Virus record (IMG/VR): IMGVR_UViG_3300044625_001174
Span: 1-27,039 of that record
Strand: one strand, 5' to 3'
DNA: 27,039 bases
Source: a virus
Shown: positions 1,437-25,786 of the stretch, piece by piece
How positions within the stretch are numbered: the first letter of the stretch is position 1
How the letters are laid out: each line of letters opens with the position of its first letter
The notes under the pieces: generated by a model
Seen by the model: only the letters and a program-made list of their open reading frames with translations
The model's database searches: none
What the model was told of the DNA's origin: nothing
Program-made: the position numbers and the translations under genes

Positions 1437-2369
1437 TTATAGGGGACAACTCAAGCAATCGTTGTAAGACAGGGTTATGACATCGTCCCAAGCACCTGAT
1501 GAAACGCTGTCGATTTCCCAACAACCTGCGGTAAGTTGTGCTTTCACCACTTTTCCAGGAACGAAGGTCGAGTTTGACGCAAACTTTCTAAAAGTCAGTG
1601 GGTCAGAACAATCAAACGCTAAATATACATTTGCGTATCCCGACTTGCTCGGAGTAATCGTTGGGGTTTTTGTAATCGTCGGTGTGGGGGTCTTCGTAGG
1701 TGTATTGCTCGGAGTAGTTCCAGGAGTCTTGGTAGGTGTAGCACTCGGGGTGTTGCTCGGAGTTGTAGCGGGTGTTCTCGTAATTGAAGGAGTCGGAGTG
1801 TTGGTCGGAGTATTCGTAGGAGTCGTGCTCGGACATACCGATGGATAAGCAATTGTGATACTTCGAATTGTTTGAGGAGGAATTGTGATGGGTGGAATAT
1901 TATTTTGAGTTCCAACTTTCAAATACCTGATTGAACCCTCTTCAACATAATCAAAGAAATATGCTAAAAAATTTCCTCCAATCGCAGGAAAAAAAAACGG
2001 GTCTTGATTCAAAGAAAAGAATCCCCAACCAATATCAATTCCCAAAGATGAGAAACAACGAATAATAAACATATTCGCTGAAGGGTATTGATAGACGGGA
2101 TAGTTGAAACCATCAGGAGCAGTGGTCGTATAAAATAAATTATTTTCTCTATAGTATGCGTAGAAGAATGTTCCCCCCGAAAAATCATATTTTCTATTGT
2201 ATGTCCCTGTATTGAGTTGAGGTGCGGAAGGGAATAGAATATCAGTAGATTGAAGAATAACTGATTCAGGACAAACCACATCCTCAATCAAGGGAGCAAA
2301 CCCCCCAAAATTGTATTGTATCCCTCCGTTCAGTTCGTTCTGAATTCGACCTCTAAAAAACTTTGTCAT
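1437..2369 (-). CDS. Putative tail fibre/appendage protein with Thr/Pro linker and Cys-rich C-terminus
   Basis: This 310-residue protein is not assigned to a named family. Residues 1-30 contain a FF...YNFGGFAP stretch that resembles the start of the next gene upstream (FF...YEYGGFVP), suggesting a shared anchor. Residues 30-177 form an aromatic, beta-rich domain. Residues 178-243 are a long linker of TPTNTPTP-like units. Residues 244-310 form a small domain with four cysteines (C254, C283, C305, C308). The start overlaps the upstream gene by 4 nt (ATGA), indicating translational coupling. The order anchor, flexible linker, small terminal domain fits a virion appendage, but this is inferred from composition and neighbours. 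ORFs antisense to the linker here are Val/Gly-rich shadows. Confidence 0.65.
1641..1838 (-). repeat. Thr/Pro-linker coding repeat, block 2
   Basis: The longest of four such blocks, encoding residues 178-243 of the 310-residue appendage protein in units like TPTNTPTP and TPSNTPS. Confidence 0.8.
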
Positions 2370-3370
2370 CGACTCAAACTTGTATTAAAGTTCTTTATTA
2401 TATCCCTCAAATCTCCGAGTTCTGTATAATTTAATCCTCTTGTAATCAAATGAGTTCCATACGTCTTGGAACTAAAAAAACCACCACCACCTTGATTCAA
2501 TAATTTTAAGGAAATGGTTATTAGTGCAGATTCGGTTGAATTAACTGAAGCAGCAGAGCCCGTGCTTCTGATGTAATCGATACGAGTAGTTCCTGTTCTT
2601 GAGGTTGCATAGAATCCGTTCTCGTAATTGGTTGCGACCAAATTAACATTGCCAGTTGAACCCATTCTTGCTACCCATTGAGTTCCACCAACACCATTGG
2701 TATTGAAACCTAAAGTTATTCCACCTGTTCCGACCTGACCCATATCCCAACCTGTATTTCCACTTGCAACAATATAACAACCAATCGTAGTATCTCCTGC
2801 GGTAGTTCCAGTGGATTGAATCCAACCTGTATCACCCGCACCGCTAACCCCATTCCCACGAACACCTTGAGCATTATGGGTAATTGTTCCTGACCAAGTG
2901 ATTAAATAATTAGTCAAATTCACAGCATTGATTCTATGTGAATTCGCTACTCCCCCGATATATGGATAAAGAGCAATAATCTTGGAATAAAGACCTGCGG
3001 TTTTGAGGTCAGTGAATAAGGTCTGCGTTGCTGCAGAAATAGTTGAAGTAATCCCTGTTCCTCCCGATAGCAAGACAGCATTCAAGAAAGCGTCCGCATC
3101 AGGGTCAGTAGCGGGTGCTGACGAAGGTGTCGGGGTCAACGTGGGTGTCGCAGTAATCGTTGGAGTAATCGTTGTCGTAGGGGTAATCGTAGGAGTCGCT
3201 GTTATTGAAGGAGTCGGAGTGTTGCTTGGTGTCAGCGAAGGTGTCGGACTTGGTGATGGAGGTGGAGCAGGAATAAATAATCTCTGTGGAACAAAACCTC
3301 CATATTCATAGACATACTCCCCTTGGAAATATTTCTCCTCTAAACTCTTAAAAAATGGGTTATCCGACAT
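2366..3370 (-). CDS. Putative tail fibre/receptor-binding protein with lectin-like C-terminal domain
   Basis: This 334-residue protein has an N-terminal YEYGGFVP motif (about 21-28), a Thr/Pro linker (33-89) and a C-terminal domain (90-334). The C-terminal domain starts [16 protein letters not shown] and continues through [21 protein letters not shown]. From memory this opening is common in Bacteroidota phage tail-associated proteins with a concanavalin/LamG-like beta-sandwich. The rest is Gly/Thr/Ser-rich and beta-prone, as expected for such a fold. It overlaps the downstream fibre gene by 4 nt and the upstream 83-aa gene by 11 nt. Carbohydrate or receptor binding is an inference, and no catalytic residues are recognisable. 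Confidence 0.6.
3104..3274 (-). repeat. Thr/Pro-linker coding repeat, block 3
   Basis: Encodes residues 33-89 of the lectin-like fibre protein in units like TPTITPT and TPTLTPTP. Confidence 0.8.
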
Positions 3371-5845: not shown

Positions 5846-8323
5846 TCACCCCATCACCCTTTTTATCAGTTCTTCAAGGAGAAAAACCCGAGTATGTGCG
5901 TCCCATAATTCCTCTGCTTGTGCGTGAGTTCTACACGGAACAAATCCATACTCCATTTTATGCGAACCCTCACAACCAATCTCTTGAGCGATTAGGTTCG
6001 CTTCTTCCTCCAAGTCAAAGAACGGAACTTTTCCGTTTATCCCTTGAAGACCCATATTCTCTGAACGAATTTTTCCACAGATACGGGGTGCTGATTCTGA
6101 ACCATATCTCTCGGTCATATCAGCGATACATTTATCCCACGGGTAGTCCTCCATAGTTTGCTTTGAAGTTCTCACGGGAACACAATTGGGGACTTCTCTA
6201 CCATCGAGAATCTTTGTCCCGTATGGTTCGTATCCCTCCCAACAAGTTCCCTCGGGGAAGTTGAAACCAAAATCCATTATTTCAATGCGTCTGATGAAGT
6301 CGTCGTAGTCGTAGTGGATTCCATCACGAGCAAAATCTCTAATTACGTCTTTAGCCATTTGTTTTCTGTTCTCGAGGTCTCTGACCTTCAACAACAATTC
6401 AACAATACCATCGACCATCTCTTTGTCTTCTGAATGTTCGTAGTTCATTTTCTCTGAATAATAATTGTAGCAAACTGCGAGTCTTTGTTGCTCGTCAGGG
6501 AACTCTCCAACCATCTTGGAATCACCCATACAACGACCGATAAAATCGCTTTCAGATTCACCTGCATTTGGATAAACAAATTCTTGTTTTTTATCACTAA
6601 AAAAGTTGAATGGAATCTCTTCGAATAGACCTTCAAGGGAAATTCCTGAGGTCTTATTGGATAAAATGAAATCTTCGAATAATTCTTTTGACCTAAAATG
6701 TATGGTTGTAATCCAAGTTCCTGGCTCAAATTCACGACCAAAAATTTCATAAGATTTATCCATCTTTGGGTCTTCTCCTACCAACCAATTCTCATAAGAA
6801 TAAACTTCATCACCCGAGAATACTTTATCGGAGTGCTCAAAGTTGATTAGATTTTTTGGACGTAATCTGCTCAATTTCATCAATGCAGTTCTGATGGTTT
6901 CCTTCGACATAAAGACCCAATAAGGTGAGTTGCTCTGTCGGTCGTAGCGGTAGATGTATTGGTTGGGTTGGAAGACTACCGCAGTGATGTCCTGTCTAAA
7001 CTCATCACGGGAGAACTGAATATTCATTTGAGTCGCTCTGTCGATTTGACCCTTGAGAAAATTCATAGCGTCATCATAGTTGTCAGGAGAGAACCCCCAC
7101 GACAACATCATCAAATAACCACACCCGTCGTCAATAGACTTTGAACTATCCCAATCTACCTTATGACGACTCCCGTAGGAATACATTCTCGTGAGAGTCT
7201 CCAACGAATGTTCCGCACCTGCTCTCGCAAGGTCGTGTGCTCTTTGTTTTCCTACGTCAGTTCCGCAGTCTCCCCAACCATTCTCCTCAGCGTAATCTAC
7301 TGCTCTCTGTGCTGCGTCTTGAATATACTTGGGGACTTCAATAAAATTATGACGAACCGAGAAGACATCTTCTACCTTCGCAGTTCCTTCGAAATATTCA
7401 GGGTAAATCTCAATGGGGATATACCCTTCACATCCCCAACCCATATCACACATCTCGACCTTCACCTTGGTAATCTTTTTTGCTGATGGTTCAGCAACCA
7501 ACGCTGCAAATCTTGACGGATACATAAACAAACCGAAGTGGAAGTTGACGGGGTCTAAAGCAAACTCTTCGTCTTTAGAAAACCCTGCAGGTCGTCTGTT
7601 GAGTTGAGAAGGGGGAACTACCTTCGCTTCAGCGATAAAAGGTCTTCCTGCTCCTCCTATGTTGATTCCACTACCCAATGCACCCTGTGCTTTGAGTGGG
7701 ATTTTCTTTAATGTCTCCTCGTAAGTAGAGTTTTCTGCAATAGGGAAATCAATCTGAAACCATCTGTGCCGACATAGCGCACCCATTTTGTATTGGAACG
7801 CGTCGACCTGTGCGTTCATCTTTGCTCTCGGAACTAACTTAAAGGTGTCAGATGCGGAAGTGAGTTCAGAAGACAAATTATTGATGTCAGTAATGGAGAA
7901 TACCTTTTGTGCTGCAATCATCTTTCTACACATCTCTCTTGAGGTTCTAATCAAGGGTGCACCCAATCCTGTATCAACTCCGTAGATGTAGCGAGTAATT
8001 GCACCACCAGGTTGGTCTTGGTCTCCGAACGCAGGGTTCCTTGGGTTAGGATTTACCTGTGGTGCAAACCCGTGTTTCGTCAATGAAAACTCTGCAGGTT
8101 TGATTCGAGCACCAACCAAAGAATCAGGGTTCAATACCTCCCCGTAGTTATCCAAAACCTTCAAGGTCTCGTCTGAGAAATCCTGTGGAACATAACAAGT
8201 ATGGGGGGTCTCATCAGAGAACACCTCAAATGCAAATTCATTCGCAGGAGATTTTACAATTGATATGTATTGGATTCCCGACAAGTCATCGTCCTCATCT
8301 ATCTTCAATTCAAAGATTCTCAT
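5846..8323 (-). CDS. Composite head-maturation protease (XkdF-like, S78-related) with large insertions
   Basis: An 825-residue protein. Residues 1-36 (MRIFELKIDEDDDLSGIQYI, then SIVKSPANEF) are the usual start of XkdF-like prohead proteases. The catalytic core, however, lies at about 440-570, with FMSKETIRTA (471-480), NFEHSDK (494-500, candidate His497), the GTW..T strand and SGISLEGLFEE (559-569, candidate Ser562). The roughly 400 residues between contain TSREMCRKMI with CRHRWF (127-189), a minor-head-protein-like Cys/His module, and a second module with NGWGDCGTDVGKQRAHDLAR and DDGCGYLMMLSWG (348-410). The C-terminal part adds FIGRCMGD...FPDEQQRLAVCY (594-619), WEGYEPYG...VPNCVP (695-716), KCIADM...RICGKI (731-752) and IGCEGSHKMEYGFVPCRTH (782-800). 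All are phrases known from phage head proteins. It cleaves scaffold and capsid during maturation (family knowledge). The start overlaps the tape measure stop (ATGA). Confidence 0.8.
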   Translation of the reverse strand: MRIFELKIDEDDDLSGIQYISIVKSPANEFAFEVFSDETPHTCYVPQDFSDETLKVLDNYGEVLNPDSLVGARIKPAEFSLTKHGFAPQVNPNPRNPAFGDQDQPGGAITRYIYGVDTGLGAPLIRTSREMCRKMIAAQKVFSITDINNLSSELTSASDTFKLVPRAKMNAQVDAFQYKMGALCRHRWFQIDFPIAENSTYEETLKKIPLKAQGALGSGINIGGAGRPFIAEAKVVPPSQLNRRPAGFSKDEEFALDPVNFHFGLFMYPSRFAALVAEPSAKKITKVKVEMCDMGWGCEGYIPIEIYPEYFEGTAKVEDVFSVRHNFIEVPKYIQDAAQRAVDYAEENGWGDCGTDVGKQRAHDLARAGAEHSLETLTRMYSYGSRHKVDWDSSKSIDDGCGYLMMLSWGFSPDNYDDAMNFLKGQIDRATQMNIQFSRDEFRQDITAVVFQPNQYIYRYDRQSNSPYWVFMSKETIRTALMKLSRLRPKNLINFEHSDKVFSGDEVYSYENWLVGEDPKMDKSYEIFGREFEPGTWITTIHFRSKELFEDFILSNKTSGISLEGLFEEIPFNFFSDKKQEFVYPNAGESESDFIGRCMGDSKMVGEFPDEQQRLAVCYNYYSEKMNYEHSEDKEMVDGIVELLLKVRDLENRKQMAKDVIRDFARDGIHYDYDDFIRRIEIMDFGFNFPEGTCWEGYEPYGTKILDGREVPNCVPVRTSKQTMEDYPWDKCIADMTERYGSESAPRICGKIRSENMGLQGINGKVPFFDLEEEANLIAQEIGCEGSHKMEYGFVPCRTHAQAEELWDAHTRVFLLEELIKRVMG

Positions 8324-16925: not shown

Positions 16926-18092
16926 TTAACAACTACCAAATCCACCGCCTTGTAATTCTCCTGAGCCGTTCGCTAACCAATAGTTATTTGAGGTTCCCAT
17001 ATCGTTTGCGTAGTATCCTGCATTCACAGGTAAAGTTCTGTGGAAATCATAATAGAGCACTTGACCTGCGTTTAGACAAGCCCAACAATTATTCGGGAGA
17101 CACGGAGCACAATTACCCAAATCTTCAGCATATACGTTGAAGGTCGTTCCTGTGATTAAGTTTCCACACGCATCAATTGAGGTCGCTCCACTTGCTACTA
17201 AGAATACCAAAGAATTTTCAGCAGGGGGTAGAATAACATTCACAGGACAGGTGCAACCACTGAACTCAACACCCAAAACATCAAACCCTACGACTACTTC
17301 GCCAGGAAGTAGAACGGGTGCTAAATCGAACTGATATGCGTGGTCTCCTTGAGGAAATACTTCTGTTCCTGTGTAGGTGGTTCCAAGACTACCAAACGCA
17401 GTTCCTGAGAAAATGTAATTACATTGTGATTCTGCTTGAGATGTAAATCCTGCGTCATTCCATAAAAGGAGTTTGAATTTAGTATTGTCAAAAACTTCTA
17501 CCTCCAAATATTGCGTAATCGTAGGACAAACCGATGGTGATGGTGTCAAAGTTGGAGTAATGGACGGAGTGATGGTAGGAGTAATCGTGGGGGTCATCGT
17601 AGGGGTCGCAGTCACTGGAGTTGGACTTGGACTTGGTTGTGGAACAAACGGAGGAATACACGCAATTTGGTCGACCAAAATCTGTATCTGTGCTTCCACG
17701 CCTGCTACCGACTGATTAAATCTATCGACAAACGGATTGTAAGTGATGGGGGTCAGAATATAGAATCCGTAATCAGTTAAGTTGTTAGCAAACCAAGCAT
17801 AGAAATCATACAAGATTTCGTGAGCAATTGACATCGCATAAATCTGATTACTTTGGTCTTCAGTCCCAACGTATTCGTTGAGCAAATCATAAATTAACAC
17901 GCTCCAATTGAACGTATTTTGTGTTTGGTCGATTATCGATTGCGTGGGGACAAAGTGAATCGCAGGATACTTTGTAATGTAGTCCTCCCTCGAGTAGTCA
18001 GATAGATTACCCCAAGAGAATGTCGTTCCCGATAAGATGGGGTGTTGATTTCTGAATTCGTAGAATAAATCTAAAATGTTTTTGTAGGTCAT
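16926..18092 (-). CDS. Putative tail-completion protein with Thr/Pro linker and appended C-terminal domain
   Basis: A 388-residue protein in three parts. Residues 1-147 (ILDLFYEFRNQHPILSGTTF, then YPAIHFVPTQ, NWSVLIYDLL, AMSIAHEILYDFYAWF and YNPFVDRFNQSVAGVEAQIQ) follow the pattern of a small head-tail joining protein common in Bacteroidota phages. That protein normally ends near here. Residues 148-190 are a linker of TPTITPTI-like units. Residues 191-388 are an extra beta-rich domain with many cysteines (CNYIFSG, SGCTCPVNV, NCAPCLPNNCWACLN). The first domain is probably the working joint protein and the rest a virion decoration. The ATG overlaps the stop of the frameshift extension upstream (ATGA). 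Confidence 0.6.
   Translation of the reverse strand: MTYKNILDLFYEFRNQHPILSGTTFSWGNLSDYSREDYITKYPAIHFVPTQSIIDQTQNTFNWSVLIYDLLNEYVGTEDQSNQIYAMSIAHEILYDFYAWFANNLTDYGFYILTPITYNPFVDRFNQSVAGVEAQIQILVDQIACIPPFVPQPSPSPTPVTATPTMTPTITPTITPSITPTLTPSPSVCPTITQYLEVEVFDNTKFKLLLWNDAGFTSQAESQCNYIFSGTAFGSLGTTYTGTEVFPQGDHAYQFDLAPVLLPGEVVVGFDVLGVEFSGCTCPVNVILPPAENSLVFLVASGATSIDACGNLITGTTFNVYAEDLGNCAPCLPNNCWACLNAGQVLYYDFHRTLPVNAGYYANDMGTSNNYWLANGSGELQGGGFGSC
17523..17651 (-). repeat. Thr/Pro-linker coding repeat, block 4
   Basis: Encodes residues 148-190 of the tail-completion-like protein in units like TPTITPTI. This copy is about 14 kb away from the other three. Confidence 0.8.
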
Positions 18093-24040: not shown

Positions 24041-24070
24041 TAAATATAAACAACAATAGAAATATCTAAA
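24041..24070 (-). promoter_or_regulatory. Weak promoter-like element before the structured leader
   Basis: In minus-strand sense it reads TTTA (24070-24067), 18 nt, TATATTTA (24048-24041). Each box is one base from the TTTG / TAnnTTTG consensus. A start 5-7 nt downstream would fall just before the outer stem of the structured leader, and that position is the main support. The element overlaps the last codons of the 246-aa gene. Confidence 0.35.
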
Positions 24071-24806
24071 TCCCGTTGAAAACGTCAATAGTATCAGAGT
24101 CGGATTGTTTCGGTTGTTTGTTGTTGAATCCCTTCCCGATTTGGTAGGTTTTGTTCGATTTGGTTTTTTTTCCATTTACGGGACTTTCTCCGAGTTCCGT
24201 GAGTAAGTCCTCATAGAACGTCCGAAGTGTCGGGAAACGTGTCCAAAACGGGTCGTTTGGGTCTGATTTGATATCGACAATAAGTTGGTGGAGATGGGGA
24301 AGGGTTAAGGTCGTCAAATCGAGGGTGAGTGCTTCCTTGAATTTCGTGTAGTCTGCGGTGCTCATAATCAGACCTTCGGTGAATCCCTTGATGGATATTT
24401 CTCGTTTGTCCGTGTAGCGAACCAATATCCCGTTGGAAGTTTTTACACTTCGGTTCTTAATCCACTTTGGGTATTCGTATTTGGGTTTCTTAATCTTGAC
24501 CTGCTCGACCCCTACCACTCTACCACGCTCGTCTGTAATTTTCTTGTCGAGAATTAGACTCTCGTCCAATAGTTCCTTGGAGAGGATTTTGAAATACTCC
24601 TCGGGATTCAACAGAGAGTCTGAATCAACCTTGTCCCAAACCCAATGATTTTGATTTTCTTCCAAGAAATTACAGAGTGAGTAAAAGATTTTATCCTCAC
24701 GAGTTCCGTAATCGTGATTCTTGTTGAAGTAAGGGAGAACCTGCTTCCAAAGTTCTCTCATCATACTTTCTCCGTGTGCTTCAAATGCTCCGATGTTTGC
24801 TTCCAT
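24066..24806 (-). CDS. Protein of unknown function, replication-linked by position
   Basis: A 246-residue protein, 6 nt after the replication initiator stops. The N-terminal half is helical and aromatic (MRELWKQVLPYFNKNHDYGT, FYSLCNFLEENQNHWVWDKV, LNPEEYFKILSKELL). The middle has a basic segment (QVKIKKPKYEYPKWIKNRSV), and about 160-215 form another helical domain (YTKFKEALTLDLTTLTLPHL, FWTRFPTLRTFYEDLL). The end is a Lys/Asn/Gln-rich tail. No Walker or nuclease motif is seen, so it is not an obvious helicase or helicase loader. By analogy with lambda O-P the place next to the initiator suggests a partner that recruits the host helicase, but the sequence alone does not show that. Confidence 0.6.
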   Translation of the reverse strand: MEANIGAFEAHGESMMRELWKQVLPYFNKNHDYGTREDKIFYSLCNFLEENQNHWVWDKVDSDSLLNPEEYFKILSKELLDESLILDKKITDERGRVVGVEQVKIKKPKYEYPKWIKNRSVKTSNGILVRYTDKREISIKGFTEGLIMSTADYTKFKEALTLDLTTLTLPHLHQLIVDIKSDPNDPFWTRFPTLRTFYEDLLTELGESPVNGKKTKSNKTYQIGKGFNNKQPKQSDSDTIDVFNGI

Positions 24807-24812
24807 TTTTTT

Positions 24813-25598
24813 TTAGATTTTAATTCCTTTACGTTTCATTTCTTCTTCAAAGATACGAATTTTATCCTGATTCGTCAAAACAGGTTTTGGTTTGGGTCTC
24901 CTTGAGATTTGTTTAATCGTCTTCCATTCCCATACCTTATCCTCCAAAAAATAGTGAAGTGATTTTTTCTCCGCTTGGTTTTCCTTGAGGTAAATCTCAT
25001 AGAACGGGAGAGAGTTCTTTGCGTCAAGTTTTTCCTTGTCAGTCATCTTTTCCCATCGTTGGAATCCCCAACCCAAGTGAGCATCCTCGTCTTTGTATTC
25101 TTCAACGAAAGATAAAAAATCGGAGGGGTGGAAGTGGTTTCCACCATATACTCCCTCTACTCTACTCTCTTTTATATCTTCTTTTATATCTACTCTTATA
25201 TTGGTGGAAATGGTTTCCGCTTGGGTGGAAGTAGTTTCCATAGGGGTGGAAGTAGTTTCCATAGGGGTGGAAATCATTTCCATAGGGGTGGAAGTATTTT
25301 CCACCCCATCTGAAATCTCACAAGAAGGTGGAAGGTCAATGTAAAGTGGAGTCTTCAAGAGTTTGATGATTCTTCCATTTGAGGAATATGTCAATTCAAC
25401 ATATCCCTCTTTAACGAATTTGCTCAAGATAGTTCGTATTGTTCTATCACTACAACAACATTTTTTTGCTGCATAGTCATTAGCGAAACAAATCCTCTGT
25501 TTATTCTCGTGGAGAGAAACAATCAACGACATCAACGCATTTTCAGTCAGAGTAAATTCAACGAAATTGTAAAGTTTGATGTATGGTTGTGTTTTCAT
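24813..25598 (-). CDS. Winged-helix replication initiator (lambda O-like organisation)
   Basis: A 261-residue protein. Residues 10-85 are a winged-helix domain (LTENALMSLIVSLHENKQRI, CFANDYAAKKCCCSDRTIRT, FVKEGYVELTYSSNGRIIKL). This is the pattern seen in phage initiators and DnaD/RepA_N-type proteins. Residues 101-132 are a repetitive 7-residue unit (STPMETT-like) encoded by the 21-bp iterons at 25203-25305. Residues 153-235 form a helical domain (PSDFLSFVEEYKDEDAHLGW, HYFLEDKVWEWKTI), probably for partner contact. The C-terminus is basic. In lambda O the N-terminal domain binds iterons located in its own gene, and the same arrangement appears here. It overlaps the HTH gene by 4 nt (ATGA). 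Confidence 0.75.
   Translation of the reverse strand: MKTQPYIKLYNFVEFTLTENALMSLIVSLHENKQRICFANDYAAKKCCCSDRTIRTILSKFVKEGYVELTYSSNGRIIKLLKTPLYIDLPPSCEISDGVENTSTPMEMISTPMETTSTPMETTSTQAETISTNIRVDIKEDIKESRVEGVYGGNHFHPSDFLSFVEEYKDEDAHLGWGFQRWEKMTDKEKLDAKNSLPFYEIYLKENQAEKKSLHYFLEDKVWEWKTIKQISRRPKPKPVLTNQDKIRIFEEEMKRKGIKI
25127..25305. repeat. Putative replication origin: six iterons and AT-rich stretch
   Basis: Six copies of GGTGGAA-N3/5-TTTCC(A) lie in the initiator gene. They start at 25127, 25203, 25224, 25245, 25266 and 25287. The last five are spaced exactly 21 bp, two helical turns, so they lie on one face of the DNA. Each is itself a partial palindrome. Copy 1 is GGTGGAAGTGGTTTCCACC, with 7-bp arms. 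Between copies 1 and 2 (about 25146-25202) is a pyrimidine-rich, T-rich stretch with TTTATATCTTCTTTTATATC, a good candidate unwinding element. The layout is that of iteron origins placed in the initiator gene. Confidence 0.75.
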
Positions 25599-25786
25599 TT
25601 CTCGATTTCAATGTGAGACCAACGTGCGTTTTTATCCATAGGGTCTTTCATTCCCAACCAAATCTTTCCAATCTGACCTCTTGAGACCATATACTTGTTT
25701 GCGATTTCTTGTTGAGTGTAGTCTCCTGTCTCCAAGAGGATTTTAATTTTACGAACTTGATTTGGGGTTAGTTTGATTCGTGGCAT
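25595..25786 (-). CDS. Small helix-turn-helix DNA-binding protein
   Basis: A 63-residue protein, almost all HTH (PRIKLTPNQVRKIKILLETG, DYTQQEIANKYMVSRGQIGK, IWLGMKDPMD). The pattern Leu-x-x-x-Gln-Val-x-x-Ile and Gln-x-x-Ile-Ala-x-x-x-x-Val-Ser is like small phage regulators, and the protein at 20917-21273 begins in the same way. It is at the head of the replication transcript, with its ATG overlapping the stop of the 46-aa gene (TAATG) and its stop overlapping the initiator start. It may autoregulate this operon or help at the origin next to it. Confidence 0.7.
   Translation of the reverse strand: MPRIKLTPNQVRKIKILLETGDYTQQEIANKYMVSRGQIGKIWLGMKDPMDKNARWSHIEIEK

Follow-up and report, generated by a model that had tools for sequence, protein, structure and literature searches.

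The question raised by this locus is whether a phage gene for a replication initiator also contains, within its own coding sequence, the origin on which its product acts. The locus lies in a viral sequence of 27,039 nucleotides (IMG/VR record IMGVR_UViG_3300044625_001174, positions 1 to 27,039), referred to here as the window, and consists of an initiator-type gene on the minus strand (24813-25598) encoding a 261-residue protein, together with an array of palindromic repeats inside that gene. An earlier note, made from the letters alone, had proposed an iteron-type origin embedded in the gene. That proposal is supported by a test of homologues, by covariation of the protein with the repeats and by one case of joint exchange, and on this comparative sequence evidence the locus is very probably an iteron origin of lambda type that lies within the initiator gene and is bound by the product of that gene.

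The repeat GGTGGAA-N5-TTCC occurs at six exact sites in the gene, starting at 25127, 25203, 25224, 25245, 25266 and 25287, and at no other position in the window. The five sites from 25203 to 25287 follow an exact 21-bp period. The iterons are GGTGGAAGTATTTTCCACC (25287-25305), GGTGGAAATCATTTCCATA (25266-25284), GGTGGAAGTAGTTTCCATA (25245-25263 and again 25224-25242), GGTGGAAATGGTTTCCGCT (25203-25221) and, beyond an AT-rich tract and in another codon phase, GGTGGAAGTGGTTTCCACC (25127-25145, referred to as copy 1); the first and the last of these are complete 19-bp palindromes, GGTGGAA-N5-TTCCACC. An additional GGTGGAA half-site is present at 25327-25333. With one mismatch tolerated, no shuffled sequence attained the observed count. 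When codons were resampled synonymously, following the codon usage of the window and keeping the protein constant, the mean was 0.26 matches and the maximum 3, against 8 observed (each of the two full palindromes being counted twice), and 0 of 20,000 samples reached the observed count. The exact count, the shuffles and the resampling bear out the six palindromic repeats described in the earlier note, and both the 21-bp period of five copies and the AT-rich stretch separating copy 1 from the rest were found as it had given them; the gap in its motif, written there as N, is corrected to five bases. Its reading of the repeats as a STPMETT-like heptad holds for the five in-frame copies. Copy 1 is in a different phase and is read as GGNHFHP, so that it falls outside the heptad, and the element common to all six copies is a DNA word and not a heptad peptide. 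Judged from these sequence comparisons, selection acts on the DNA of the repeats rather than on the heptad peptide.

The protein matches initiator families over its winged helix and linker, namely phrog_270 (replication initiation protein, E 4e-6), phrog_428 (E 8e-5) and phrog_186 (DnaD-like, E 1e-4). An AlphaFold2 model built with eight relatives predicts a winged-helix DNA-binding domain at about residues 10-88 (25335-25571; predicted local distance difference test [pLDDT] score mostly 72-92) with a recognition helix at residues 51-64 (25407-25448), a disordered linker at residues 90-155 (25134-25331; pLDDT <50) and a helical C-terminal domain at residues 159-256 (24831-25124), which from the model is presumed to be the replisome-recruiting part. 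A fold search of the model against the PDB returned the N-terminal domains of plasmid RepA-type initiators and DnaD first, all weakly (E 0.02 or worse), and the best matches among viral models were replisome organizers and helix-turn-helix (HTH) proteins. The iterons and the AT-rich tract coincide with the stretch coding for the predicted disordered linker, and the initiator coding sequence contains multiple iterons, as in a lambda-type in-gene origin. Such an origin also has AT-rich, easily melted DNA adjoining its iterons, and this is likewise found in the window: the tract between copies 1 and 2 (25146-25202) is 57 bp long and 74% A+T, carries tandem TCTTTTATATCT repeats at 25168-25201 and is a candidate DNA unwinding element. 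No 50-mer of the gene is less stable than that at 25155-25204, which begins inside the tract, and of all 50-mers in the window only 0.4% are.

Near-identical DNA is present in two other contigs, and in the one that spans the iteron region this region is identical. The window protein had no match among annotated phages, and a genome scan by protein alignment recovered no relative. Relatives were obtained from a paired-motif scan and two protein-alignment scans, which yielded homologues as well as a broader HTH_36-like group, Flavobacterium phage FCV-1 among them; a Vibrio phage initiator and a human-gut phage record were added and near-duplicates were removed, leaving 67 genes for testing (loci are designated by L numbers). 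The paired-motif scan gave 31 viral loci, most of which were set aside as chance or unrelated. A first repeat-count statistic was dropped because it was confounded by AT-rich low complexity, and a spaced-chain statistic was used in its place. This statistic recovers the lambda O iterons as a positive control (4 sites, p 0.01), and it scored only 1 of 90 other open reading frames (ORFs) from the same loci, itself initiator-like. At least three palindromic sites at 20-25 bp intervals were found in 49 of the 67 distinct relatives, a fraction that is not a population estimate as the sampling was partly motif-based, the two alignment scans being free of motif selection. The arrays mostly lie just past the winged helix, at about residues 90-130. 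In a codon-permutation test with 100 shuffles per gene, 44 of the 67 genes attained the smallest possible p of about 0.01, weak chains being hard to judge in AT-rich genes. Of the 49 array-bearing relatives, 47 have their sites in two or three codon phases, all three being used by L041 (22-bp steps) and L067 (23-bp steps). Past the repeats, the relatives average 0.77 A+T, versus a gene average of 0.66 (Wilcoxon 6e-13). The homologue check proposed earlier, in which a conserved protein repeat over freely varying DNA would have spoken against an origin, thus gave the opposite: the palindromes are kept and the peptide is not, because spacings of 22-23 bp shift the DNA motif through the codon frames. 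The match of 21 bp to seven codons, to which the earlier note had drawn attention, is not essential.

By sequence matching, the GGTGGAA repeat itself also occurs in initiator-like genes of an Atopobium prophage and of a Ruminococcus contig. These were the only relevant loci (L153 and L159) from a genome scan with the paired repeat, whose other results were mostly intergenic arrays of Bacteroides-type assemblies with no relation to winged-helix genes. L159 is a prophage gene in Atopobium fossor, the same gene as L004. L153, on an uncultured Ruminococcus contig, is a winged-helix gene (6410-6991, minus strand) with a 193-residue product and a strong HTH_36 match, and it contains seven 21-bp units of STPMEKT type followed by an Asn/Tyr-rich, AT-rich stretch. 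Several other occurrences were recorded. On a GC-richer contig, L026 (12653-13364, plus strand) is a winged-helix gene with GTGGAA-N5-TTCCAC sites at intervals of about 20 bp, perhaps another instance of the scheme. Arrays of GGTGGAACNNGTTCC with a period of about 22 bp occur in many of the Bacteroides-type assemblies (L124-L163, e.g., L129, L132, L149, L151), several per genome, mostly outside long genes and none in winged-helix genes. Two Mariprofundus genomes (L147, 3145-3181, and L161, 2029-2065) have in common one pair of GGTGGAAA-N3-TTTCC-like sites, located outside every ORF of at least 100 codons.

The half-sites of the arrays differ among relatives, and they change together with the protein. 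The half-site GTGGAA is found in the window, L012, L045, L046 and L050, while the Vibrio phage has GTGACA and other relatives have GTAAAG, TTAAAC, TGCAAC and more. Half-site distance correlates with recognition-helix distance (r 0.515), and the correlation persists with the rest of the N-terminus controlled (partial r 0.42; permutation p 0.0005, approximate as are all p-values of this Mantel test). It is strongest at the recognition helix, DRTIRTIL. L050, which shares its contig with L004, falls in the other protein group, yet has a GGTGGAAA site and a DR-type helix as in the window. The clearest case is the pair L042 and L043, which are 92-97% identical over the first 40 codons, then 42-68% identical through the recognition helix and the iterons, then 98-100% identical from the AT-rich tract on and at least 87% to the gene end; by this alignment the recognition segment and the repeats have been replaced as one block. 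A broader proposal, to which we would give an even chance, is that the recognition half of the winged helix and its matching iterons form a portable specificity cassette, exchanged as a unit within a large phage class whose hosts belong to several phyla, with a readable recognition code from which origins and incompatibility might be predicted. In this proposed code, [DE]R-[ST]-[IV] helices would pair with GTGGAA, K-Q-G with TTAAAC and P-T-V with GTAAAG.

For the window we infer binding, melting, helicase recruitment and origin firing along the following lines. Each palindromic iteron would be occupied by a dimer of the winged-helix N-terminal domain, its GTGGAA half-sites being read by the recognition helix, a contact to which the covariation and the block exchange point indirectly. 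By analogy with lambda O (PMC7466680) and pSK41 Rep (PMC5703833), several dimers about two helical turns apart would form a nucleoprotein origin complex, this complex would melt the AT-rich tract next to it, and the replicative helicase would be brought in by the C-terminal domain through host factors or a loader. Translation of the origin DNA would give a floppy linker tolerant of almost any peptide, leaving the DNA free to evolve as a binding array.

Several observations weigh against an origin bound by this protein. The HTH_36 domain (PF13730) is below the Pfam cut-off in the window protein (18.0 bits versus 25, E 0.003); the homologue L012 scores 24.4 bits, and L035, L120 and L153 of the wider group are above the cut-off. 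The AT-rich tract of the window lies between iterons and not solely beside the array. A correlation with the iterons is likewise seen for the N-terminus outside the helix (partial 0.33), which indicates that ancestry is incompletely removed, and the Mantel test corrects for shared ancestry only in part. No recognisable helicase loader is encoded in the window, and no GC-skew switch is seen at the locus in this partial record, in which most genes are on one strand. Were the palindromes instead operators, from which the winged-helix protein represses an early operon or sets copy number from inside its own gene, the origin would lie elsewhere. Small palindrome-binding winged-helix proteins are often repressors, covariation of helix and half-site would fit a repressor too, and a small HTH gene of 63 codons (25595-25786) lies immediately upstream, overlapping the start of the initiator gene; a homologue occupies this position in both L040 and L049, with none seen in L043. 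The array, however, is mid-gene and not at a promoter, AT-rich DNA follows it across families, the protein matches initiator and not repressor families, and related genes lie beside loader and helicase genes, and we consider the operator explanation improbable. Autoregulation could nevertheless accompany the binding, the operator and origin roles being compatible.

The explanations in which the repeats have no role as DNA are less probable still. Five in-frame copies at 21 bp, and a similar 21-bp STPMEKT array in the Ruminococcus gene L153, are what would be expected if the repeats served the protein as a tandem STPMETT linker, or had grown by slippage as a low-complexity array. Against this, copy 1 is in a different frame, relatives with 22-23 bp spacing place the same DNA in all frames, the palindromes are lost on synonymous resampling and the linker is predicted to be disordered, making such a role very improbable. 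Each palindrome could also fold around a loop of 5 bases to give a short stem, as would suit messenger RNA hairpins governing translation or stability, but the covariation is strongest at the DNA-recognition helix of the protein, and an RNA role would not readily account for the even spacing of two helical turns or for the neighbouring AT-rich tract; hairpins are judged just as improbable as the protein repeat. An in-gene origin remains the preferred reading.

Parts of this arrangement are already known: in-gene origins from lambda and pSK41, an exchanged block of HTH_36 and origin from pPR9, and covariation of domain and origin from the PLE satellites. The lambda origin is situated centrally within the initiator gene, and its iterons are imperfect inverted repeats adjoining an AT-rich tract (PMC7466680). 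The window resembles it in its probable in-gene origin and AT-rich neighbour, the lambda iterons being spaced 20-24 bp apart in several codon phases; it differs in its iteron and in having no recognisable P protein. The window protein has no match to PF04492 (Phage_rep_O) in Pfam, whereas lambda O itself does. The earlier impression that the two sequences are unrelated agrees with hhalign, which found no similarity between the window family and lambda O. Its suggestion of an independent case was not borne out: phages commonly have this architecture, and the O-like PHROGs 678 and 345 match both lambda O and the family of the window, which suggests a distant kinship at the level of sequence profiles. 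The staphylococcal HTH_36 initiator of pPR9 type has an N-terminus akin to phage replication proteins, and this N-terminus and the origin were exchanged as a block of about 500 bp with autonomous replication shown (PMC5703833). The C-terminal domain of pPR9 Rep is RepA, unlike that of the window protein, and by the spaced-chain statistic pPR9 Rep has no significant palindromic chain, its linker having direct repeats. The pSK41 Rep has four Rep boxes mid-rep, a dispensable origin-coded linker and a DnaD-like N-terminal winged helix (PMC5703833); this RepA_N protein is like that of the window in its mid-gene boxes and N-terminal winged helix and in being of the type that gave the best, though weak, PDB fold matches, and unlike it in that the window protein has no match to the RepA_N domain. 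In the Vibrio PLE satellites the DNA-binding domain and origin covary and swap as a module (PMC8263062), the origin being intergenic and the protein RepA_N rather than HTH_36, in both of which the window differs. What is new here is the GGTGGAA palindrome, together with the breadth of the arrangement across phage initiators. As the earlier note had supposed, this iteron appears to be new, no report of it having been found in a literature search confined largely to openly available papers.

Immediately downstream of the initiator gene, a 246-residue protein is encoded on the same strand (24066-24806), with homologues at the same place in five relatives (L042, L043, L013, L012 and L025). By position only, it is a candidate helicase-loading partner; its product has no family match, and its predicted structure is of low confidence with no meaningful fold match. 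In relatives, the initiator gene is followed by an IstB/DnaC-like ATPase gene (L004), a DnaC-like loader gene (Porphyromonas phage) or a DNA helicase gene (Vibrio phage), and a plasmid of E. eligens has consecutive genes for an HTH protein, an ATPase and a DnaB-like helicase. The terminase of the window is nearest to terminases from phages of Bacteroides and Phocaeicola, with an identity of about 32%, and by this similarity the host is likely a member of the Bacteroidota. Elsewhere in the window, several predicted structural proteins (1437-3370, 16926-18092) contain PSPTPSITPT-type repeats with a 12-bp periodicity in the DNA.

To our knowledge, no replication origin is known for most phages from the environment. 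Should the rule described here hold, the origin of such a phage could be read from the linker of its initiator gene, and each phage would provide a matched DNA-binding helix and target in a single gene, together amounting to a natural data set on how this winged helix recognises DNA. It would also give phages a simple route by which to switch replication specificity and so escape competition or origin-targeting nucleases.
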